A program made the translations under genes and the position numbers. From Candidatus Woesearchaeota archaeon (GTDB taxonomy: Archaea; Nanobdellota; Nanobdellia; SCGC-AAA011-G17; GW2011-AR18): DNA of 59,649 nucleotides. The stretch is taken from assembly GCA_018302105.1 (NCBI GenBank), contig JAGWAD010000011.1, forward strand, positions 11,087 through 70,735. The letters run 5' to 3'. This document shows, piece after piece, positions 2,893-45,113 of the stretch (positions are counted from its first letter, which is position 1; each line of letters starts with the position of its first letter). Below the pieces are notes generated by a model. The model worked only from the letters and a program-made list of their open reading frames with translations. It searched no databases and was not told where the DNA came from.

Positions 2893-3372
2893 AAAGATAA
2901 AAATTTCACAATCATTAAATATATTAATAAGCATTTCTTAATTATAAATGAAAAATATTTAGATTCAAAAGGAAAGGGGGAATATATTTATTATCCTAAA
3001 GAAGATAATCTAAAATTAAAGATAAAGGATAAAAAAGAAAATTATTCAATATTATTAAGATCAAAATTTTGTAAATCAGAACCAGGAGAAGGAGATATAA
3101 TATTAAACATTGATTCAGAAGGATTTGTAATTGGAATATCATTCTTAGAAGCATCCCAAATATTTAAAATTTCAAAAGATTCGCTTGAAAAAATAAAGAA
3201 ATATGAATATCAGGCAAAAATAATTAAAAAATCAATTTCAATTAAAGTAGAAATAGAAGCAGAACAAAATAATAAGTCAATAACAAAGAAATTTTCAATA
3301 AAATCTAAAACCCGCGAGGAAAGAGAAACTGAAGTAGATTGTAGTATGATTTCTTATGGCCTTGGGTTCTAA
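2893..3372 (+). pseudogene. DUF2283-like reading frame without a usable start
   Basis: The frame is open for 160 codons after an in-frame TGA at 2890-2892, and its composition is clearly protein coding. The segment 'IILNIDSEGFVIGISFLEAS' is typical of DUF2283 proteins. No ATG, GTG or TTG occurs in this frame until near the 3' end, and an ATG in another frame (2889) is followed at once by a stop. The gene has either lost its 5' end, has a frameshift near 2890, or uses a rare start such as ATT. It lies right of the short direct repeat at 2872-2890, so loss of the start may relate to insertion of the neighbouring cassette. Confidence 0.45.
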
Positions 3373-3431
3373 AATAAAAAGTATAAAAATATTAGTTTTT
3401 ATTTAGAAAACAATTACTTAAAGAAATATTT

Positions 3432-3731
3432 TCAGTAATTTTTATTAACTAAGCAATTTATACCATAAGAATAAGCATTAGATGTTCCAGGAATATAATT
3501 AAAAAATTTCACAGTAATACCTTTACGTTTCTCACACATATTTTTGCATTCCTCATCATACATTTTTTCAGTATAAATAATATCTTCTCTTGTAACTCCA
3601 GATGTAAAACCCCTGTGTTCAACAGAACAAAGAATCTCATGATCAAAACTCATTGTTTTAATTTCTAATGAAATCTCATTTGTATAAGAACATTCAGACA
3701 AAATAAAAATTATAGGAAAAATTATAAACAT
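3432..3731 (-). CDS. Small predicted lipoprotein, unknown function
   Basis: A 99-residue protein with a short hydrophobic N-terminus ending in 'ILSEC', which could serve as a lipoprotein processing site. The rest is hydrophilic with further cysteines ('DEECKNMCEKRKG', 'GINCLV'), suggesting a secreted, disulfide-bonded protein. I do not recognise the family. It is transcribed away from map, and the two starts are only about 20 bases apart. Confidence 0.5.
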   Translation of the reverse strand: MFIIFPIIFILSECSYTNEISLEIKTMSFDHEILCSVEHRGFTSGVTREDIIYTEKMYDEECKNMCEKRKGITVKFFNYIPGTSNAYSYGINCLVNKNY

Positions 3732-3750
3732 TACTAAAGTCTAAAAATCA

Positions 3751-4656
3751 ATGGAAAATGAAATTTTAGAGTCATGGAAAAAAGCTGGAAAAATTGCAGC
3801 AGAAGCAAGAGAATATGGTAAAACATTAATTAAACCAGAATCAAATTTTTTAGAAGTTTCAAGAAAAATAGAAGAATTTATTGTAAAAAAAGGAGCAAAG
3901 CCGGGTTTCCCAGTCCAATTATCAATTAATGGAATAGCAGCGCATTACACAGCATTTCCAGAAGATAATTCAGTTTTCTCAGAAGGGAATTTAGTTAAGC
4001 TTGACCTTGGCGCACATATAAACGGTTATATTGGAGATACAGCCTTGACTTTGGAAGTATCTACAAATAAAAATCAGGAATTAATAAAAGCAAGCAAAGA
4101 AGCATTGGACGCAGCAATAAAATTAGCAAAACCAGGAACAAAAGTTTGTGAAATAGGAGAAGCAGTAGATAATGTAATTACAAAATATGGCTTTCATCCA
4201 ATTAAGAATCTATCAGGGCATAAAATTGATCAATATATTTTACATAGTAACTTAAGCATTCCAAATTACAACAATAAGGACAAAACAGAATTAGAAGAAG
4301 ATATGATAATTGCTATCGAACCTTTTGCATCAACAGGAATGGGATTAATTAAAGAAGGAAAAGCATCAAGCAATTATCGTCTTTATGAATTTAAGCCAGT
4401 AAGAGATTCTATTACAAAAGAAATTTTATTATTTATCAAGAAAGAATTTTCAACATTGCCATTTGCTAAACGTTATTTAGTTCCAAAATTCCCATTAGCG
4501 AAAGTAAATTATGCATTATCAAACCTGGAAAAATTAGGAATTATATATCAATATCCACAATTGCCAGAAAAAGAAGAAAATTGTTTAGTATCACAGCATG
4601 AACATACAATTTATATTAAAGACAAGCCAATTATATTGACTAAAGTAGATGATTAA
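3751..4656 (+). CDS. map: Methionine aminopeptidase, type II
   Basis: Removes the initiator methionine from nascent cytoplasmic proteins. The 301-residue length is right for an archaeal type II enzyme (M24 'pita-bread' fold). Visible metal and active-site motifs in order: 'NGIAAHYT' (His), 'KLDLGAHINGYIGDTA' (two Asp ligands), 'NLSGHKI' (His), 'IAIEPFA' (Glu) and the terminal 'SQHEHT' (Glu). The helical insert that defines type II enzymes lies near residues 200-270. The start is ATG at 3751. Confidence 0.95.
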   Translation: MENEILESWKKAGKIAAEAREYGKTLIKPESNFLEVSRKIEEFIVKKGAKPGFPVQLSINGIAAHYTAFPEDNSVFSEGNLVKLDLGAHINGYIGDTALTLEVSTNKNQELIKASKEALDAAIKLAKPGTKVCEIGEAVDNVITKYGFHPIKNLSGHKIDQYILHSNLSIPNYNNKDKTELEEDMIIAIEPFASTGMGLIKEGKASSNYRLYEFKPVRDSITKEILLFIKKEFSTLPFAKRYLVPKFPLAKVNYALSNLEKLGIIYQYPQLPEKEENCLVSQHEHTIYIKDKPIILTKVDD

Positions 4657-19275: not shown

Positions 19276-22200
19276 ATGGTCGAGATGAACCAACAAATCC
19301 AGAAATATTTCTCTGATATAGATAAAGGAATTGCTGTTTGTTATGATGTTGCTAACAAAGCAAGGCAAAAAGGTTTTGATCCAGATACAAAAGTAGAAAT
19401 TCCATTAGCCAAAAATATGGCAGAACGTGTAGAAGGGCTTATAGCCGTAGTTTGTCCACAAATTAGAAATAGTGGTTTATCGCAAAGAATAAGAGAACTA
19501 GAATTAAAATATGGAAGCCAGAATTGGAGGGTTGCATTTTTAATTTCAGAAGAAATAGCAAATGAAAAATTCTGCAAATTTAAAGATAAAAAAGAAGCAA
19601 TAGAAGTTAGTTTAAGAGCAGGTTTAGCTTACATTACAAATGGTGTTGTTTCATCTCCTTTAGAAGGATTCATAAGACTAGAATTAAAGAAAAGAAAAGA
19701 TGACGGTCGTGAATATTTCTGTTTATATTTCGGTGGTCCAATAAGAAGTGCAGGAACAACAGCAACTTGTATTTTTCTGGCAGTCTGTGATTATATTCGT
19801 ATGAAAACAGGTTACGCAGTGTATGACCCAACAGAAGAAGAAATTAAAAGAACATTTTCAGAATTAGAACATTTTCATGATAGAATAACAAATCTCCAAT
19901 ATTATCCTTCAGAAAGGGAAGCAGCATTTATTACAAGACACCTTCCAATTCAGATTGATGGCGATGCAAGTGAAAAAATAGATGTTCCAAATTATAAAGA
20001 CCTTCCAAGAGTGTCAACAAACAAATTAAGAAATGGTTTTTGTTTAGTAATGGCTGAAGGACTATGCCAGAAATTTGCAAAATTTTGGTCTAAATTTTCA
20101 AAATGGTATACTGAAATGGGAATGGATCATTGGAAATTTTTAGATGATTATGTTGCATTACAAAAAGAAATAAAATCAAAAGGAACAGTTAAAAAAGACA
20201 CATCTGCAAAAGTTACTCCAGATTATACTTATATTAAAGACCTAGTGGCAGGACGTCCAGTTTTAGGATACCCATTACGCATCGGTGCCTTTAGAGTTAG
20301 ATTTGGGAGAGCTAGGACAGCAGGATTGAGTGATGATGCAATTCATCCAGCTACAATGGTTGCTTTAGATAATTTCATTGCTTATGGAACTCAATTAAAA
20401 ACCGAAAGACCTGGAAAAAGTACAACAATAAGTTCTTGTGATTCTTTAGAAGGTCCAATTGTAAAATTAAAAAATGGCGATGTATTATTATTAGAAACAG
20501 AATCGCAGGCAAGACAGGTAGTAAAAGATATACAAGAGATAATATTTATGGGTGACATTCTTATAAATTATGGCTATTTTCTAAATCGTGGTCATATTCT
20601 TGCTCCAGTAGGATATTGCGAAGAGTGGTATGCCTTGGAATTAGAAAAAGCCTTGGGAGAAAATAAAGGGATTTATACAGATTTAATAAAAAATCCAAAT
20701 AAAATTAAAATTAGTTGTGAAGCTGCAATTGCAATAAGTAAAGAATATAGTATCCCATTGCATCCGCGTTATACTTTTCATTTTGCAGACCTTTCGCATG
20801 AACAATTTATTGATTTATTAGACTGGTTAAATTATGCAGTTGTAAAAGATGACAAGATAATACTCCCAATAACAGTATTAAAATCACCAAAACGAATATT
20901 GGAATTAATTGGTTGTCCGCACATATTTGCAAATAATGAATATGTAGTTATTGAAGGAAATTGGGCATTGGCATTGAGGGTAAGTCTTGGTTTCTATTCT
21001 CAGGAATTTAATTTAGAAAATATAAAAAAAGAAATTTCTAATGAACTTCCAATTTTAGATATTATAAATAAAATAAGCGAAGTAAAAATAAGAAATAAAT
21101 CTGGTTTATATATTGGTTCAAGAATGGGGAGGCCTGAAAAAGCAAAGATGAGAAAATTAACAGGTTCCCCACATGCCTTATTTCCTGTAGGTGCAGAAGG
21201 TGGAAGATTAAGATGCTTTCAGGCAGCATTAGAATCTGGAAAAGTAACAGCAGATTTCTCAAATTTATTTTGTAAAAATTGCAATTCAAATACTGTTTAT
21301 CCTCATTGTCATAAATGTGGCCAGGAAACAATTAAGAAATTTATATGTAAAGAATGTTCTGATACAACAGGAAATTGTAAACACGAATCCTCTATTGCTT
21401 TCTCCAAGCAGGAAATTAAAATCCAGGAATATTTTCAGGATGCCTTAAAAAAATTAGGAACCAATAATTATCCTGAATTAATAAAGGGTGTTCGTGGAAC
21501 TTCAAATAAAGAACATATTCCGGAACATCTGTTAAAAGGAATTCTTAGATCTATCCACAATATTCACGTAAATAAAGATGGAACAACAAGGTACGATATG
21601 ATCGAAATGAGCTTGACACACTTCAAACCAAAAGAAATAGGAACAGACATAGAAAAATTAAAATCTTTGGGATACACTCATGATGTCTATGGCAATGAAC
21701 TAACAAATGACGAACAAATTCTTGAGTTAAGATGCCAGGATTTAGTTTTACCCTCATGTCCTGAAAGTTTGGATGAAGGTTGTGATTTCATTTTGTCAAG
21801 GGTTGCAAATTTCATTGACGATTTAATGGAAAAATTATATGGCATGCCAAGATTCTATAATTTAAAGAAAAAAGAAGAATTAGTTGGGCATTTAGTTGTA
21901 GGTTTATCTCCTCACACAGCAGCAGGAATAGTTGGAAGAATTATTGGTTTCTCAAAAACACAGGCAATGTTAGCAAATCCTTTATTTCACAGTATTATGA
22001 GGAGAGACTGTGTTCATCCTAATACAAAATTATTATTTTTTGACAAAGAAAATAGCCTGAATTATAATAAAATTGGTAAATTTGTTGATGAATTAATAGA
22101 AAAAGGATGTAAAACAAAAGTAATTGATATGGTTGGAACAAAAGCAGTTTATCCAAATCAGGAATATTATACTTATGGTGCAGATCCAAATACAAAATTA

Positions 22201-24291
22201 TTGGTAAAAAAGAAAATAAAATATTTTATCAAAGGACCAAAAACCCAAAAATGGGTTAAGATTACAACTTCCACAAATAGAGAATTTGCTATGACACCAA
22301 CTCACGATTTTATGTGCTTAGATGAAAATAATAAAATTAAATCAAAAAAAGCCAAAGAAATAGTTGTAGGTGACAAAACATTAGTTATGGATTATTTAGA
22401 ATTTCCAATAAAAAATATAGAAAAATTAGATTTAATCAAAGAATTAATAGAAAAATTACCTGAAAATATAAAAAATAAATTTAGAATAATTAATTGCACA
22501 GATTTTTTCAAGAATTTGGTAAAAATAAATGGAAGAGATAAAATTATTTCAGTTATAAATTCATCAAAATCAATTATACAAAATTTGAATAGGTGGTATA
22601 AAGCAATTCCTTTAAACCACATAGAAAAACTAATTTTAGAAAACATAATTTCTTATGAAAATTTACCAGAAAATTCTAAAATAAAATATTGGTTTAGTAA
22701 TAAAAGCTTTGATAGGTTTTTAAATATAAATTTGGATTTATGCAGGCTATTGGGAACCTACACAGCAGAAGGGCATTGCAGAGAAAATAAAACTACAAGA
22801 CAAGTAAGTTTCAGAATTTGTCATCCAATTCTGGGAAATGATACTTACGATAGAATAAAAAGAGTTTTTAATATAATTTCTGCTCTTGAGGAAAATAATA
22901 CAAAAATTACAATTTCTCATTCTTTAGTTTATTATTTATTTAAATATATTTTAGGTACTGGATTTAATGCAAAAAATAAAAAAGTACCGCAAATAATTTA
23001 TTCATTAAAAGATAATTTAGTTTCAGAATACATCTCAGGTTATGTTGATGGTGATGGAAGTATTGATCCGGAAGATTTAATTATTCATTTTTATTCAGCT
23101 AATAGGTCGTTGCTTGACGATTTTGCTTTACTAATCTCTAGATTTCATGCAATTGGAAGATATGTAAAAATTCCTCCAAGATTGCCTGGCAAAACAGTTT
23201 TATATAAATATCTTGAATTGGGGCACAAACCCAAAAAATTTGGTTTATTCCATTTAGTTTTTAGAGGGGAAGACGCTAATATTTTATCTTCTAAATTATC
23301 ATTGTATCATCCTGAAAAAGAGTTAAAAGCTAATTATCTTTTACAAAAAGAATATGGAGAAAAGTTAATAAAAGTAAATAATCATTTGATTGCAATTAAA
23401 TCTTTTGGAGATTCATTTATTGATTATATTAAAAATGTAGAAATTATAGAAGATGAAAAAAATTCTTATTGCGTTGAAGTTGAATGGAATAAAAAAGAAG
23501 AGAGAAGTGTTGTATGGGGAGAACAAATTATAAATTTTCGTTGTGATGGCGATGAAGCAACAGTAATGTTATTAATGGATGCATTGTTAAATTTTTCACC
23601 AAAACTTTTAAGTGATCACCGTGGAGCAACACAGGACGAGCCATTAGTTTTAACTTCTATGATTTTACCAACAGAAGTAGATGATATGGTTTTTGATATG
23701 GATATAGTTTGGAAATATCCTTTAGAATTATATGAAGCTTCATTACAATATAAACCTGCATATGAAATCCCAATTAAAACTCTAAAATCGGAATTAGGAA
23801 AAGAAGGACAATATGCTGGTTGGGGATTTACACACGATACAGATAATTTTAATGCAGGAGTAAGATGCAGCAGTTATAAAACAATTCCAACAATGCAGGA
23901 GAAAGTAGAAAAACAAATGATATTAAGTGAAAAAATTCGTGCAATCGATATCTCTGATGTTGCAAGACTGATTATTGAACGTCATTTCATTCGCGATATA
24001 AAAGGTAATTTAAGAAAATTTTCCCAGCAGCAGTTTAGGTGTGTTAGTTGCAATGATAAATATAGAAGACCACCATTGAAAGGAAATTGTATTTCTTGCG
24101 GTGGTAAAATTTTATTTACAATATCGCATGGGTCAATCATAAAATATCTGGATGCAAGTTTGATGTTGGCTGAAAAATATGCAGTGCCTTCATACTTAAA
24201 ACAGACTTTAGATTTAGCTAAACAAAGAATTGAAATGTTATTTGGTAAAGAAAAAGAAAAGCAGGAAGGATTGACTCGCTGGTTTAGTTAA
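19276..24291 (+). CDS. polC: DNA polymerase D large subunit DP2 with an in-frame intein
   Basis: Catalytic subunit of replicative polymerase D. The frame encodes 1671 residues, of which residues 912-1422 are an intein; the spliced protein would be about 1160 residues, the normal size. The N-terminal domains ('YFGGPIRSAGTTA', 'RIGAFRVRFGRARTAG') and the C-terminal zinc motif ('CVSCNDKYRRPPLKGNCISCGG') are intact. The intein sits directly before 'CDGDE', whose two Asp residues are the catalytic pair known for DP2, so the unspliced protein should be inactive. Start ATG 19276 gives 'MVEMNQQIQKYF', which matches the family's short N-terminus. Expression probably shares control with orc1-polB, though a pseudogene separates them. 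Confidence 0.96.
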   Translation: MVEMNQQIQKYFSDIDKGIAVCYDVANKARQKGFDPDTKVEIPLAKNMAERVEGLIAVVCPQIRNSGLSQRIRELELKYGSQNWRVAFLISEEIANEKFCKFKDKKEAIEVSLRAGLAYITNGVVSSPLEGFIRLELKKRKDDGREYFCLYFGGPIRSAGTTATCIFLAVCDYIRMKTGYAVYDPTEEEIKRTFSELEHFHDRITNLQYYPSEREAAFITRHLPIQIDGDASEKIDVPNYKDLPRVSTNKLRNGFCLVMAEGLCQKFAKFWSKFSKWYTEMGMDHWKFLDDYVALQKEIKSKGTVKKDTSAKVTPDYTYIKDLVAGRPVLGYPLRIGAFRVRFGRARTAGLSDDAIHPATMVALDNFIAYGTQLKTERPGKSTTISSCDSLEGPIVKLKNGDVLLLETESQARQVVKDIQEIIFMGDILINYGYFLNRGHILAPVGYCEEWYALELEKALGENKGIYTDLIKNPNKIKISCEAAIAISKEYSIPLHPRYTFHFADLSHEQFIDLLDWLNYAVVKDDKIILPITVLKSPKRILELIGCPHIFANNEYVVIEGNWALALRVSLGFYSQEFNLENIKKEISNELPILDIINKISEVKIRNKSGLYIGSRMGRPEKAKMRKLTGSPHALFPVGAEGGRLRCFQAALESGKVTADFSNLFCKNCNSNTVYPHCHKCGQETIKKFICKECSDTTGNCKHESSIAFSKQEIKIQEYFQDALKKLGTNNYPELIKGVRGTSNKEHIPEHLLKGILRSIHNIHVNKDGTTRYDMIEMSLTHFKPKEIGTDIEKLKSLGYTHDVYGNELTNDEQILELRCQDLVLPSCPESLDEGCDFILSRVANFIDDLMEKLYGMPRFYNLKKKEELVGHLVVGLSPHTAAGIVGRIIGFSKTQAMLANPLFHSIMRRDCVHPNTKLLFFDKENSLNYNKIGKFVDELIEKGCKTKVIDMVGTKAVYPNQEYYTYGADPNTKLLVKKKIKYFIKGPKTQKWVKITTSTNREFAMTPTHDFMCLDENNKIKSKKAKEIVVGDKTLVMDYLEFPIKNIEKLDLIKELIEKLPENIKNKFRIINCTDFFKNLVKINGRDKIISVINSSKSIIQNLNRWYKAIPLNHIEKLILENIISYENLPENSKIKYWFSNKSFDRFLNINLDLCRLLGTYTAEGHCRENKTTRQVSFRICHPILGNDTYDRIKRVFNIISALEENNTKITISHSLVYYLFKYILGTGFNAKNKKVPQIIYSLKDNLVSEYISGYVDGDGSIDPEDLIIHFYSANRSLLDDFALLISRFHAIGRYVKIPPRLPGKTVLYKYLELGHKPKKFGLFHLVFRGEDANILSSKLSLYHPEKELKANYLLQKEYGEKLIKVNNHLIAIKSFGDSFIDYIKNVEIIEDEKNSYCVEVEWNKKEERSVVWGEQIINFRCDGDEATVMLLMDALLNFSPKLLSDHRGATQDEPLVLTSMILPTEVDDMVFDMDIVWKYPLELYEASLQYKPAYEIPIKTLKSELGKEGQYAGWGFTHDTDNFNAGVRCSSYKTIPTMQEKVEKQMILSEKIRAIDISDVARLIIERHFIRDIKGNLRKFSQQQFRCVSCNDKYRRPPLKGNCISCGGKILFTISHGSIIKYLDASLMLAEKYAVPSYLKQTLDLAKQRIEMLFGKEKEKQEGLTRWFS
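22009..23541 (+). other. DP2 intein with LAGLIDADG endonuclease and atypical C-terminal residue
   Basis: A 511-residue intein (residues 912-1422 of the precursor). It starts with Cys in block A ('CVHPNTKLLFF'), has block B 'MTPTHDFMC', and carries two LAGLIDADG motifs ('LLGTYTAEG' and 'YISGYVDGDGS') with their acidic residues, so the endonuclease looks intact. Block F is 'SYCVEVEW' and block G 'GEQIINFR', followed by Cys+1 of the extein. The terminal residue is Arg and the penultimate Phe, where inteins normally have His-Asn or His-Gln. Asn or Gln cyclisation at the usual position is therefore impossible, so splicing must use an unusual route or be impaired. Confidence 0.9.
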
Positions 24292-38461: not shown

Positions 38462-39559
38462 ATGGTTTCAAAATCAGGAAATAAAATTAAATTAGAACAA
38501 AACACTTCTAAAGGAAAAACTTCAACTTCCGTGAATTCCACAGCAAACGACTTACAATACTTAGATACTTCTCAGATAAAAGTTCCTGAAAAAATTGCAG
38601 ATCAGATTATTGGACAGGAAGAAGGATTAAAAATAATGAAAAAAGCTGCTTTACAGCGTCGCCACGTGCTTTTAATTGGTGAGCCTGGAACAGGCAAAAG
38701 TCTAATAGGTCAGGCATTGGCAGAATTGCTTCCAGCAACTAAACTTTCAGATATTTTGTGCTTGCCAAATGATCAGGATGAAAATAATCCATTAATCAGA
38801 ATAATGCCAAAAGGTAAAGGAAAAGAATTAGTTAATAAAATAAAAATGAAAAATGCAGATTCATTTAAAAATCAAAATATAATCTTCTTTATATTAGTAG
38901 GAATTGCAATTATAACTCCTTGGTGGGTTAGAAAACAATACGGAGATATTTTAGCAGCAGCTTCTCTAATAGGTTCAATGATTTTTCTAGGAATTTTTGT
39001 TATATTTATGAATTTAAATAGAAGAATGTCAACAAACAAAATAAAAGTTCCAAAATTATTAGTTGATAGTTCAGAACAGAAAATTGCACCATTTATAGAT
39101 GCAACTGGTGCACATGCTGGCGCTCTTCTCGGAGATTGTCTTCACGATCCTTTGCAGTCACTAGACAGTAGTAACACAATTACATTTATTGAGGAAAACA
39201 ATTATTCAAACAATAAACAATTTTCTTTTCAAGAAAAAAATATTTCTGATGTCATAAATAAAATTTTAAAAGATAAGCAAAATATTATTAAAAACAAAGA
39301 AGGATATGAAGCAACATTTATCGATAAAGGAGAAGTATCGATTGTTGCTGAAAAAGAAAATGTAATAATAAATTCTCAAGTATTATCAGTAAATCGTTAT
39401 CCTAAAGAGGGAAAATTGATTAAATTAACAACAGAAACAGGAAAAGAATTAATCATAACACCAGAGCATAAAGTTGCAACAAAGAATTTATTTAATAAAA
39501 TAAAATATCTTAGGGCAGATAAAATTAAATTCTGGCACAAACTGATTACCATTGAATAA
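38462..39559 (+). CDS. lonB: LonB protease N-terminal part fused to an N-terminal split intein half
   Basis: Membrane-anchored ATP-dependent protease, N-terminal portion. Residues 1-232 are LonB: Walker A 'GEPGTGKS' (about 75-82), the two membrane helices of archaeal LonB ('FFILVGIAIITPWWV', 'SLIGSMIFLGIFVIFM'), then 'ATGAHAGALLGDCLHDPLQ'. From residue 233 the protein becomes an intein N-half to its stop at 365. The remaining LonB sequence resumes exactly at '[12 protein letters not shown]' in the gene at 43722-45113, after an intein C-half. The two proteins must be joined by trans-splicing to restore the ATPase and protease. The start is ATG 38462. Confidence 0.93.
   Translation: MVSKSGNKIKLEQNTSKGKTSTSVNSTANDLQYLDTSQIKVPEKIADQIIGQEEGLKIMKKAALQRRHVLLIGEPGTGKSLIGQALAELLPATKLSDILCLPNDQDENNPLIRIMPKGKGKELVNKIKMKNADSFKNQNIIFFILVGIAIITPWWVRKQYGDILAAASLIGSMIFLGIFVIFMNLNRRMSTNKIKVPKLLVDSSEQKIAPFIDATGAHAGALLGDCLHDPLQSLDSSNTITFIEENNYSNNKQFSFQEKNISDVINKILKDKQNIIKNKEGYEATFIDKGEVSIVAEKENVIINSQVLSVNRYPKEGKLIKLTTETGKELIITPEHKVATKNLFNKIKYLRADKIKFWHKLITIE
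39158..39556 (+). other. N-terminal half of a split intein (133 residues)
   Basis: Begins with Ser1 of block A ('SLDSSNTITFIEENN') directly after 'LHDPLQ' of LonB. Block B is 'ELIITPEHKVAT' with the conserved Thr-x-x-His. The frame ends about 25 residues later, where a continuous intein would carry an endonuclease or blocks F and G; those lie in the gene at 43722. No LAGLIDADG motif is in this half. Confidence 0.9.
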
Positions 39560-39714: not shown

Positions 39715-40821
39715 ATGGAACAAATAATTTTAGAACAAGATATAATTAATACTTATCCAGAGAAAAATATAAAATTATCAGAAGATTATATTAAATATTT
39801 AAAATTAAAAAATGAAAATCCAAACTTAGGTTATAAAAAATTATCAAAATTAATGAACGAGCCAATCCATAGGACAAGATATTGGCATCATGGAAATGCA
39901 ATTCCTCAACCAGTAAGAACTGTTAATTGGTTAAAAGAAAAAGGCTTGCTGCCATTAAATTCAGATAATCCAAATATAAATTTAATAACTAAAATATTTG
40001 GAGCAACATTTGGAGATGGTGGCATATTTGGAAATTTAAATGCAATTTTTATTTCAAGTTCAGAATTAGAAGCAGTAAAAGAATTTGGAGAAGATCTTAA
40101 AAAATTATTTGGAGAAGAAATAGAAGAAAATTTTAGAATAATTGAAGGTGGAGAATATGGTCATTCCTGGTGCTATCAGAACACAAATAGGAATATAATA
40201 AGGTTTTTCATGGCTTTAGGCGCGCCTATTGGGGATAAATCATTTACATCGATGTTAATACCAAATTGGATTAAAACTGAGAAAATTGAAGATGAATTTT
40301 ATGGTTCATTGTTTGGGGCTGAAATAGGAATACCAAAAGTACATATAAACAAAAAAAATTTAGATAGTTTATCTTTTGGGATAACCGGAACAGAAAAATT
40401 TGCAGAAAATAGAATAAGGTTTTTATCGCAAATGGCAAATTATTTGAACAATAAAGGAATTAAAACAGGGACAATTAATATTAACGAACACAAAAAGGTA
40501 AATAGGGGAGGAGAACCAACCAAAATTTACAGATTGTTAATATCAATAGAATTTGACAATGTAACAAATTTCATGACTTTGACAAAAATGAATTATTGTA
40601 GATATAAAAAAGAAAAACTAGCAAATACAATGAATGAATTTTCAGAGATAAAAAGACAAAGAATAAAAGAAATGTTGGAATTAGGATACGGACTTAAATC
40701 AATATTAAATCTGTTAAATTTATCAGAAACCTCTTTAGAAATAATAGAAAACTATGAAAATTTTCACGCAATATATAATGATAGTGTAAATCAGTATTTA
40801 GTGCCAGAAATTTTTTCATAA
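39715..40821 (+). CDS. Free-standing LAGLIDADG homing endonuclease
   Basis: A 368-residue DNA endonuclease. An N-terminal helix-turn-helix-like segment ('LGYKKLSKLMNEPIHRTRYWH') precedes two LAGLIDADG-type motifs ('IFGATFGDGGIFG' near 90 and 'FYGSLFGAEIGIP' near 197), each with an acidic residue at the catalytic position. A second HTH-like stretch occurs near 310. It lies 155 bases after the N-half of the split LonB intein, on the same strand, and could be the endonuclease that once resided in or mobilised this intein. It has its own TATA promoter with TGGAC repeats. The start is ATG 39715. Confidence 0.88.
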   Translation: MEQIILEQDIINTYPEKNIKLSEDYIKYLKLKNENPNLGYKKLSKLMNEPIHRTRYWHHGNAIPQPVRTVNWLKEKGLLPLNSDNPNINLITKIFGATFGDGGIFGNLNAIFISSSELEAVKEFGEDLKKLFGEEIEENFRIIEGGEYGHSWCYQNTNRNIIRFFMALGAPIGDKSFTSMLIPNWIKTEKIEDEFYGSLFGAEIGIPKVHINKKNLDSLSFGITGTEKFAENRIRFLSQMANYLNNKGIKTGTININEHKKVNRGGEPTKIYRLLISIEFDNVTNFMTLTKMNYCRYKKEKLANTMNEFSEIKRQRIKEMLELGYGLKSILNLLNLSETSLEIIENYENFHAIYNDSVNQYLVPEIFS

Positions 40822-42922: not shown

Positions 42923-43690
42923 ATGGAAGATATACTAAAAAGCATTGGATTATCAGAAAGAGAAATAAAAGTATATCTGGCATTATTAGAGTTAGGACAA
43001 ACAACAGTAGGACCAGTAGCAACAAAAACAAGAATCCAACACCCGAAAATATATCAAACTTTAGAAAAATTAATAGACAAAGGATTAGTAAGTTTTATTA
43101 TAATATCAAAAACAAAACATTTTCAGGCACAGGATCCTAAGTATATATTAAATATAATAAAAGAAAAAGAAAGAAAATTTATAGAAATCTTGCCAATTCT
43201 AAAACAAAAACAAAAATTTTCAAAAGATAAGCAAACAGCAACAATCTACGAAGGCTACGAATCAATTAAGTCAATGTTCAATAATATTATAGAAAATTTA
43301 ACTAAAAATAGTTATTATTATGTATTTGCATTTAAAGAAGAATATATTAATTCTCAATTAGCCTCAAGATTTCTAAGAAATATCCACATTAGATTGTCAG
43401 AAAAGAAATTAGACGACAGATTAATTGTTCACAGTTCCATAAAAAAAGAATTTATTAAAAATTATTCACATATTAAAGGAATAAAATACAAATTTTCAAA
43501 TATTAATATTCCTTTTGGTTTAATCATAACAGACAATAAAATTATTAATTGGGTATGGGAAGAAAGACCAACTGCTGTAGAAATAACTTCTAAAAAAATA
43601 GCAGGGCAATATAAACTCTTCTTTTTAGATATATGGAATAGTATAAATAAACAACAATACCAAAAATATATTAAAAAATCCAACCACTAA
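42923..43690 (+). CDS. TrmB-like transcriptional regulator inside the split lon locus
   Basis: 255 residues with an N-terminal winged HTH ('LSEREIKVYLALLELGQTTVG', 'HPKIYQTLEKLIDKGLV'), a central helix and a C-terminal domain starting 'ATIYEGYESIKSMF'. It is paralogous to the regulator at 26578-27327. It ends 31 bases before the start of the LonB C-terminal gene. The short symmetric word AGTAATACT lies upstream near 42884. It may regulate the adjacent cargo operon or the second lon half. Confidence 0.8.
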   Translation: MEDILKSIGLSEREIKVYLALLELGQTTVGPVATKTRIQHPKIYQTLEKLIDKGLVSFIIISKTKHFQAQDPKYILNIIKEKERKFIEILPILKQKQKFSKDKQTATIYEGYESIKSMFNNIIENLTKNSYYYVFAFKEEYINSQLASRFLRNIHIRLSEKKLDDRLIVHSSIKKEFIKNYSHIKGIKYKFSNINIPFGLIITDNKIINWVWEERPTAVEITSKKIAGQYKLFFLDIWNSINKQQYQKYIKKSNH

Positions 43691-43721: not shown

Positions 43722-43856
43722 ATGCCAGAAGAATTGCCATTTAAACTAAAAACAGAAAGAGTAAAGAAAATAGAAAAAATACAATATGATGGTTATTTAT
43801 ATAATCTTACAACAGAATCAGGAAATTTATTCGCAAATAAGATATTAGTAAAAAAT
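43722..43856 (+). other. C-terminal half of a split intein (45 residues)
   Basis: Contains intein block F ('[19 protein letters not shown]') and block G ending 'ILVKN' before Ser+1 of the extein. The terminal Asn is canonical; the penultimate residue is Lys rather than His, a substitution tolerated in some inteins. With the N-half at 39158-39556 it makes a 178-residue mini-intein. Confidence 0.9.
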
Positions 43857-45113
43857 TCAGGCGGTTTAGGAACACCAGCACATGAACGTGTTGTTGCAGG
43901 AATGCTTCAAAAAGCAAATTCAGGGGTTCTTTTCATTGATGAAATTGGATTATTAGATTATCATTCCCAGCAGGAATTATTGTCAGCATTACAGGAAAAA
44001 AAATATAAAATTACAGGCCAGTCAGAAAGATCTTCAGGTTCTATGGTAAGTACAGAAGCAGTTCCAACTGATTTTATTTTAGTTGCAGCAGGAAACCTGG
44101 AAATACTAGAAAAAATGCACCCCGCACTAAGATCAAGAATTCGTGGTTATGGTTATGAAGTTTACATGAATGAAACTATGGATGATAACGTAGAAAATAG
44201 GAATAAATTAGTCCAATTCGTTGCTCAGGAAGTAGTAAAAGATAAAAAAATTCCTCATTTCAAAAAAGAAGCAGTAGATGAAATTATTAAAGAAGCAAGA
44301 AAAATGGCAGGAACATCAGGAAAACTTACAGTCCGTCTGCGTGAACTAGGAGGACTCATTCGTGCAGCAGGTGATTTAGCCTTAGAATCAAATTCAAAAT
44401 TAGTAGAAAGAGAACATATAATAAAAGCAAGACAATATGCAAGACCATTAGAACAACAATTAGCAGACAAATATATTGAAAATAAAAAGAAATACGAAGT
44501 AATAATAACATCAGGGTCTCGTATAGGTCGTGTCAACGGTTTAGCTGTTATTGGTTCAGGCGCTGCTTTATCAGGCTTAGTCTTGCCAATTGAATCTGAA
44601 GTAACAAAAGGCGGAGAAAAAGCAGAATTTATAGCAACAGGCCAGTTAGGGGACATAGCAAAAGAAGCAGTAAAAAACGTTTCAGCTATAATTTTGAAAG
44701 TATTTAATGAAGATATAAAAGAAAAACATGATATATTTATTCAGTTTATTCAAACCCATTCCGGTGTTGAAGGAGACTCTGCATCAATAGCAGTTGCCAC
44801 AGCAATAGTTTCAGCTTTAAAAGATATTCCAGTAAGACAGGATACAGCAATGACAGGTTCTTTATCAATTCGTGGAGAAGTCCTTCCAATTGGTGGAGTT
44901 ACTGCAAAAGTAGAAGCTGCAATAGAAGCAGGTTTAAAACAAGTTATAGTTCCAAAAAAGAATTACAATGATTTGGTATTATCTAAAGAACAGCTTGAAA
45001 AAATAAAAATTATTCCAGTAGAGCGTTTTAGTGAAGTTCTAAAAAATGCTTTGATTTGGGAAGGCAAAAATAAAATTGTATTAAAAAAATTATTAAACAC
45101 TAAATCAAATTAA
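43722..45113 (+). CDS. lonB: C-terminal split intein half fused to the LonB ATPase/protease part
   Basis: 463 residues. Residues 1-45 are an intein C-half; residues 46-463 continue LonB from '[12 protein letters not shown]'. The LonB part holds Walker B 'GVLFIDEIG' (about 68), the AAA sensor region ('[25 protein letters not shown]') and the C-terminal serine protease with the catalytic dyad: Ser in '[12 protein letters not shown]' and Lys in '[14 protein letters not shown]'. Without the N-terminal gene it lacks Walker A and the membrane helices. ATG 43722 with a TATA box about 25 bases upstream shows it is expressed separately. The precise join with the first gene restores a full-length LonB of about 650 residues. 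Confidence 0.93.

Follow-up and report, generated by a model that had tools for sequence, protein, structure and literature searches.

The DP2 gene and its intein

The window, by which we mean the whole analyzed stretch of 59,649 nucleotides from a Candidatus Woesearchaeota archaeon, carries a gene for DP2, the large subunit of polymerase D (PolD), at positions 19276 to 24291. This gene and its parts described below lie on the plus strand. It is an uninterrupted frame of 1671 amino acids (aa) with three Pfam DP2 domains, and it harbors an intein of 511 aa (22009 to 23541) that has a HINT fold, contains an endonuclease and matches Pfam Intein_splicing and LAGLIDADG_3. The N-extein (19276 to 22008) ends in HSIMRRD, the same flank as in intein-less relatives, in which MRRD runs directly into CDGDE. 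The C-extein starts with Cys+1 and the catalytic motif CDGDE (23542 to 23556).

An earlier note, made from the sequence, had described this intein as ending in Phe-Arg before CDGDE and as otherwise complete. Direct reading confirmed both statements, and the coordinates were exact. Cys1 (TGT, 22009 to 22011), the nucleophile of step 1, is followed by block B with Thr96-Pro-Thr-His99 (22294 to 22305), by two LAGLIDADG motifs, LLGTYTAEG (22747 to 22773) and ISGYVDGDG (23032 to 23058; Pfam LAGLIDADG_3 at residues 338-402), and by block F with Ser-Tyr-Cys488, the F:4 Cys (23464 to 23472). The final codons AAT TTT CGT (23533 to 23541) encode Asn509 at position -3 (23533 to 23535), Phe510 and the last residue, Arg511 (23539 to 23541); then follows TGT GAT GGC GAT GAA, with Cys+1 as its first codon. 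The genome has a size of 1.15 Mb, is 98% complete and consists of 42 contigs, and a search of these contigs revealed no second DP2.

Other intein-like elements were also seen. In the same genome, a Top6B-like protein (topoisomerase VI subunit B; L002, G000 contig C41, match at 3353-4354) contains an intein with the canonical end AILCHN followed by Ser, so that canonical inteins are not generally lacking in this genome. The LonB protease in the window (38462 to 39559 and 43722 to 45113, both plus strand) apparently contains a naturally split intein. Its first open reading frame (ORF) encodes the N-half of LonB and an intein N-fragment, apparently with Ser1 and the block B sequence TPEHK, and then stops. 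The second ORF starts with the intein C-fragment, which has the canonical end VKN followed by Ser, and continues as the C-half of LonB. The approximately 4.2 kb between them contain a LAGLIDADG-like ORF (39715 to 40821) and a gene for a TrmB-like regulator (42923 to 43690). In another genome, a single frame of 2046 residues (G033 contig C15) has three separate intein-like matches.

The Arg ending is shared by inteins of ten families

Relatives were searched in the order (103 genomes), in a set in which each GTDB species is represented by one genome and in 371 genomes of the phylum. Complete copies were collected by the motifs RR[DN]C and CDGDE; this survey of one phylum yielded 35 complete and distinct inteins inserted at this site of DP2. 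Fifteen of them, including that of the window, end in Asn-x-Arg directly before Cys+1, an ending found in 0/20 of the sister inteins, of which most end in Gln (16/20) and fewer in Asn (4/20). A 16th Arg-ended copy is split over two contigs of one genome (G058). The Arg type is spread over 16 genera and ten families of Nanoarchaeota/Woesearchaeota, and in all inteins of the survey, Arg type or not, the flanks are RRD (once RRN) and CDGDE, unchanged in comparison to intein-less relatives. The C-terminal block of the Arg type was not detected in any other host gene among the 371 genomes. Furthermore, no viral carrier was found by a protein scan; a scan with a DNA pattern led to two contigs with unrelated context.

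Arg-type inteins share a mean pairwise identity of 43% (minimum, 33%), and their strictly conserved residues include Cys1, Thr96, His99, Cys488 (F:4), Gly504, Ile507, Asn509 and Arg511. Cys1 is also present in 20/20 Gln/Asn-type inteins, and both the block B Thr and His and the Tyr-Cys of block F are invariant in 35/35. Asn(-3) and the terminal Arg are each invariant in 15/15 Arg-type inteins, whereas position -3 is T, V, A, S or N in the Gln/Asn type. The residue x between Asn and Arg varies (T, F, L, M or A). According to the summed branch lengths of the tree, the Arg clade has accumulated approximately nine changes per average column, but positions -1 and -3 have not changed at all. Four different codons encode the Arg (AGA in six cases, CGA in four, AGG in three and CGT in two), and thus selection acts on the amino acid and not on the DNA. 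The four Arg codons together with the free x codon rule out selection on a DNA homing site.

In the tree, a branch with a support of 100/100 separates all Arg-type inteins from the rest, and therefore the ending probably arose once. Among the nearest neighbors of the window's intein is one from another order (L113), a sign that Arg-type inteins may move horizontally between orders. Three members are mini-inteins without endonuclease (169, 191 and 204 aa; L023, L014 and L111, respectively). All three are still in frame and retain Cys1, Thr-x-x-His and Asn-x-Arg. The 169-aa one is located at L023:1501-2007; the 204-aa mini-intein does not group with the other two, at forks that are weakly resolved.

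Arg takes the place of the terminal Gln or Asn

When Arg was aligned to the terminal Gln/Asn of the sister inteins, the last 12 columns summed up to +4.4 (mean BLOSUM62 per column) with a hydropathy correlation of 0.70. When Asn(-3) was aligned to the Gln/Asn instead, the values were -9.6 and 0.06, and all other registers tested scored below 0. AlphaFold models were made for two precursors, that of the window (pLDDT 88.4) and one of the Gln type (L036; pLDDT 88.0), and both models have a final strand from -5 to -2, followed by Arg and Gln, respectively; the input alignment already had these two residues in one column. Since the sequence register and both models agree, it is predicted to be Arg, and not Asn(-3), that occupies the usual place of Asn/Gln. 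In a Foldseek search, the window model matched intein structures with E values down to 1.9e-28 (best PDB matches, 2cw7 and 7qsu). HHalign aligned the Arg type with the Gln/Asn type over 458 columns (E = 1.7e-58); this alignment stops at block F and by itself does not fix the C-terminal register.

The two types differ in more than the last residue. Between YCxxV and the last hairpin, the Arg type has approximately six more residues. The block-F His (F:13), which is thought to aid Asn/Gln cyclization (PMC4031507; PMC8175363), is present in 16/20 Gln/Asn-type inteins but is replaced by N, S or T in 15/15 of the Arg type. Because this His is also gone, the sequence suggests that the cyclization apparatus is missing as a whole. 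The NCBIfam model intein_Cterm (TIGR01443) matched 0/15 Arg-type inteins but just 2/11 of the Gln/Asn type, and is thus no discriminator.

The interrupted DP2 is the only one in its hosts

In 16/16 host genomes, the DP2 catalytic domain was detected once, as two highly conserved halves around the intein. A second, intein-free DP2 copy was not found in any of these 16 hosts. PolB was detected in 14/16. Because of this, the essentiality of DP2/PolD in these hosts rests on other archaea, by analogy with which the enzyme would be essential. In one genome (G250 contig C1:141833-144232), a PolB frame of 1226 residues was matched in two separated pieces, suggesting an intein in PolB.

Proposed splicing with an Arg-dependent release

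We see about an even chance that the DP2 insert is a working, mobile, class-1-like intein, in which the cleavage between Arg511 and Cys+1 would depend on Arg(-1) and Asn(-3) and leave a tracelessly joined polymerase; both the splicing and its chemistry are what we infer from conservation and models. In line with a working intein, Arg and Asn(-3) are invariant in 15/15 despite the mean identity of 43%, and the mini-inteins are kept in frame. According to this proposal, the terminal Gln/Asn would have been replaced by Arg in a DP2 clade of single origin, in which the block F-G hairpin was also rewritten and Asn(-3) became invariant. Steps 1 and 2, for which every residue is in place, would proceed as in class 1: a thioester at Cys1, aided by the block B Thr/His, and transfer of the N-extein to Cys+1. 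Step 3, the release from the branched intermediate, cannot proceed by Asn/Gln/Asp cyclization at this junction; instead, the Arg511-Cys+1 bond itself would be cut, relying on Arg(-1) and Asn(-3). Such direct cleavage is the likeliest route because Arg and Asn509 are invariant and because, according to the register, the residue at the junction is Arg. Traceless joining to RRD-CDGDE is favored because the flanks around the catalytic loop are unchanged.

The release could take two forms. The Arg side chain might close on its own carbonyl, giving a six-membered lactam as the counterpart of the glutarimide of Gln. Against this form, a guanidinium is only weakly nucleophilic without deprotonation, and we know of no precedent for Arg side-chain cyclization among inteins. 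Alternatively, the Arg511-Cys+1 bond might be hydrolyzed after activation by Arg/Asn. That the Arg-ended DP2 inteins constitute a mechanistically new group, with a traceless release that needs Arg and Asn(-3) and bypasses Asn/Gln/Asp cyclization, we hold with somewhat less than even confidence.

A different and unlikely course is that Asn(-3) cyclizes and cuts two residues upstream of the junction. The x-Arg would then either stay in DP2 as a two-residue insertion, after the acyl group has shifted from Cys+1 to the newly formed N-terminus, or leave as a diketopiperazine, so that the amine of Cys+1 becomes available for a native join. Asn cyclization is known intein chemistry (PMC4031507). As an invariant residue, Asn(-3) is specific to the Arg type, and its strict conservation may just as well mean that the chemistry is the task of Asn. 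The earlier note had suggested an unusual C-terminal route or help from Asn(-3), and the conservation in 15/15 speaks for this idea. However, its simplest form, with Asn at the usual terminal place, fits badly: the register has Arg there, and after such a cut the DGD loop of the catalytic center would contain two additional residues, which it is unlikely to tolerate. Furthermore, the block-F His that would assist the cyclization is missing, and an invariant Arg next to a variable x would be left unexplained. To our knowledge, diketopiperazine release does not favor Arg. A variant in which the intein would end at Asn(-3) and x(-2) would act as the +1 nucleophile was ruled out by the nature of x (T, F, L, M or A).

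It is improbable that the intein itself proceeds to the branched intermediate and that an Arg-specific host protease then cuts between Arg511 and Cys+1, with an acyl shift joining the exteins. The strict Arg with a free neighbor does look like a P1 site for proteases that are trypsin-like or specific for Arg. However, the invariant Asn(-3) and the rewritten hairpin suggest intein chemistry, and the predicted structure places the junction at a strand end within the fold. Since the clade covers ten families and moves between orders, the protease would also need to be a general one.

We regard it as equally improbable that no true splicing takes place, so that the intein would be retained or cut at its N side only, DP2 would be nicked, branched or inactive, and PolB would replicate the genome. 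The known step 3 residue is indeed absent, and PolB is present in most of the hosts. On the other hand, Cys1, TxxH and Cys+1 are invariant over a deep divergence, the mini-inteins are in frame, both DP2 halves are highly conserved, and the insert sits in the catalytic loop, directly before CDGDE. The argument of the earlier note that the enzyme is essential and the intein must be removed stands insofar as the genome's only DP2 is interrupted, and a nonstandard release is needed if the enzyme works; its premise of essentiality holds by analogy, and PolB offers another polymerase in 14/16 hosts. Finally, an error of sequencing or assembly at an Asn or Gln codon has next to no probability: the window does come from a single fragmented assembly, but the comparison with related DP2 inteins, which the note had called for, refutes an error because the ending is common to 15 complete inteins and the split copy, and recurs with different codons in the 14 other complete inteins and the split copy, from other genomes.

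Comparison with known inteins

In the open-access papers searched, we found no Arg-ended intein. Of all steps of protein splicing, release by a cyclizing C-terminal residue varies least. If cleavage dependent on Arg(-1) and Asn(-3) is true, a conserved family without the cyclizing residue, in the active site of the probable main replicase, would mean that this step can run differently. The natural mini-inteins of 169-204 aa can be expressed, and the Arg family might be a source of new C-terminal cleavage tools.

Class 3 inteins share the F:4 Cys with the Arg type but lack an N-terminal nucleophile, and this class is ruled out by the Cys1 in 15/15. Bacterial intein-like domains (BILs) are, like the Arg type, HINT-type domains that depart from the standard mechanism. 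However, BILs lack a +1 nucleophile, whereas the Arg type, at its conserved replicase site, has Cys+1 in all members and is therefore not a BIL.

The Gln-ended Pol-II (PolC) inteins of Pyrococcus abyssi and P. horikoshii (PDB 2lcj and 5bkh) are located at the same DP2 site before CDGDE; these two inteins require heat and reducing conditions. Together with the Gln/Asn-ended DP2 inteins of Nanoarchaeota, they share Cys1, the block B TxxH, Cys+1 and the HINT fold with the Arg type, and the nanoarchaeal ones are its full-length homologues, endonuclease included. The Gln/Asn-ended DP2 inteins use Gln/Asn cyclization and mostly keep the block-F His, whereas the Arg type has an Arg end, Asn(-3), no block-F His and a longer F-G hairpin. 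Like class 1 inteins, the Arg type has Cys1, the block B Thr/His, the F:4 Cys, Cys+1 and the splicing fold, but it lacks the C-terminal Asn, the standard last residue, as well as the variants Gln, Asp and Glu (review, PMC4031507). Also absent is the F:13 His, which is frequent, though not universal, in class 1. Because the fit with class 1 covers the N-side residues, the fold and Cys+1 but not the C-terminal residue, we classify the Arg type, on its sequence features, as a class-1-like variant and not as a plain member of class 1.
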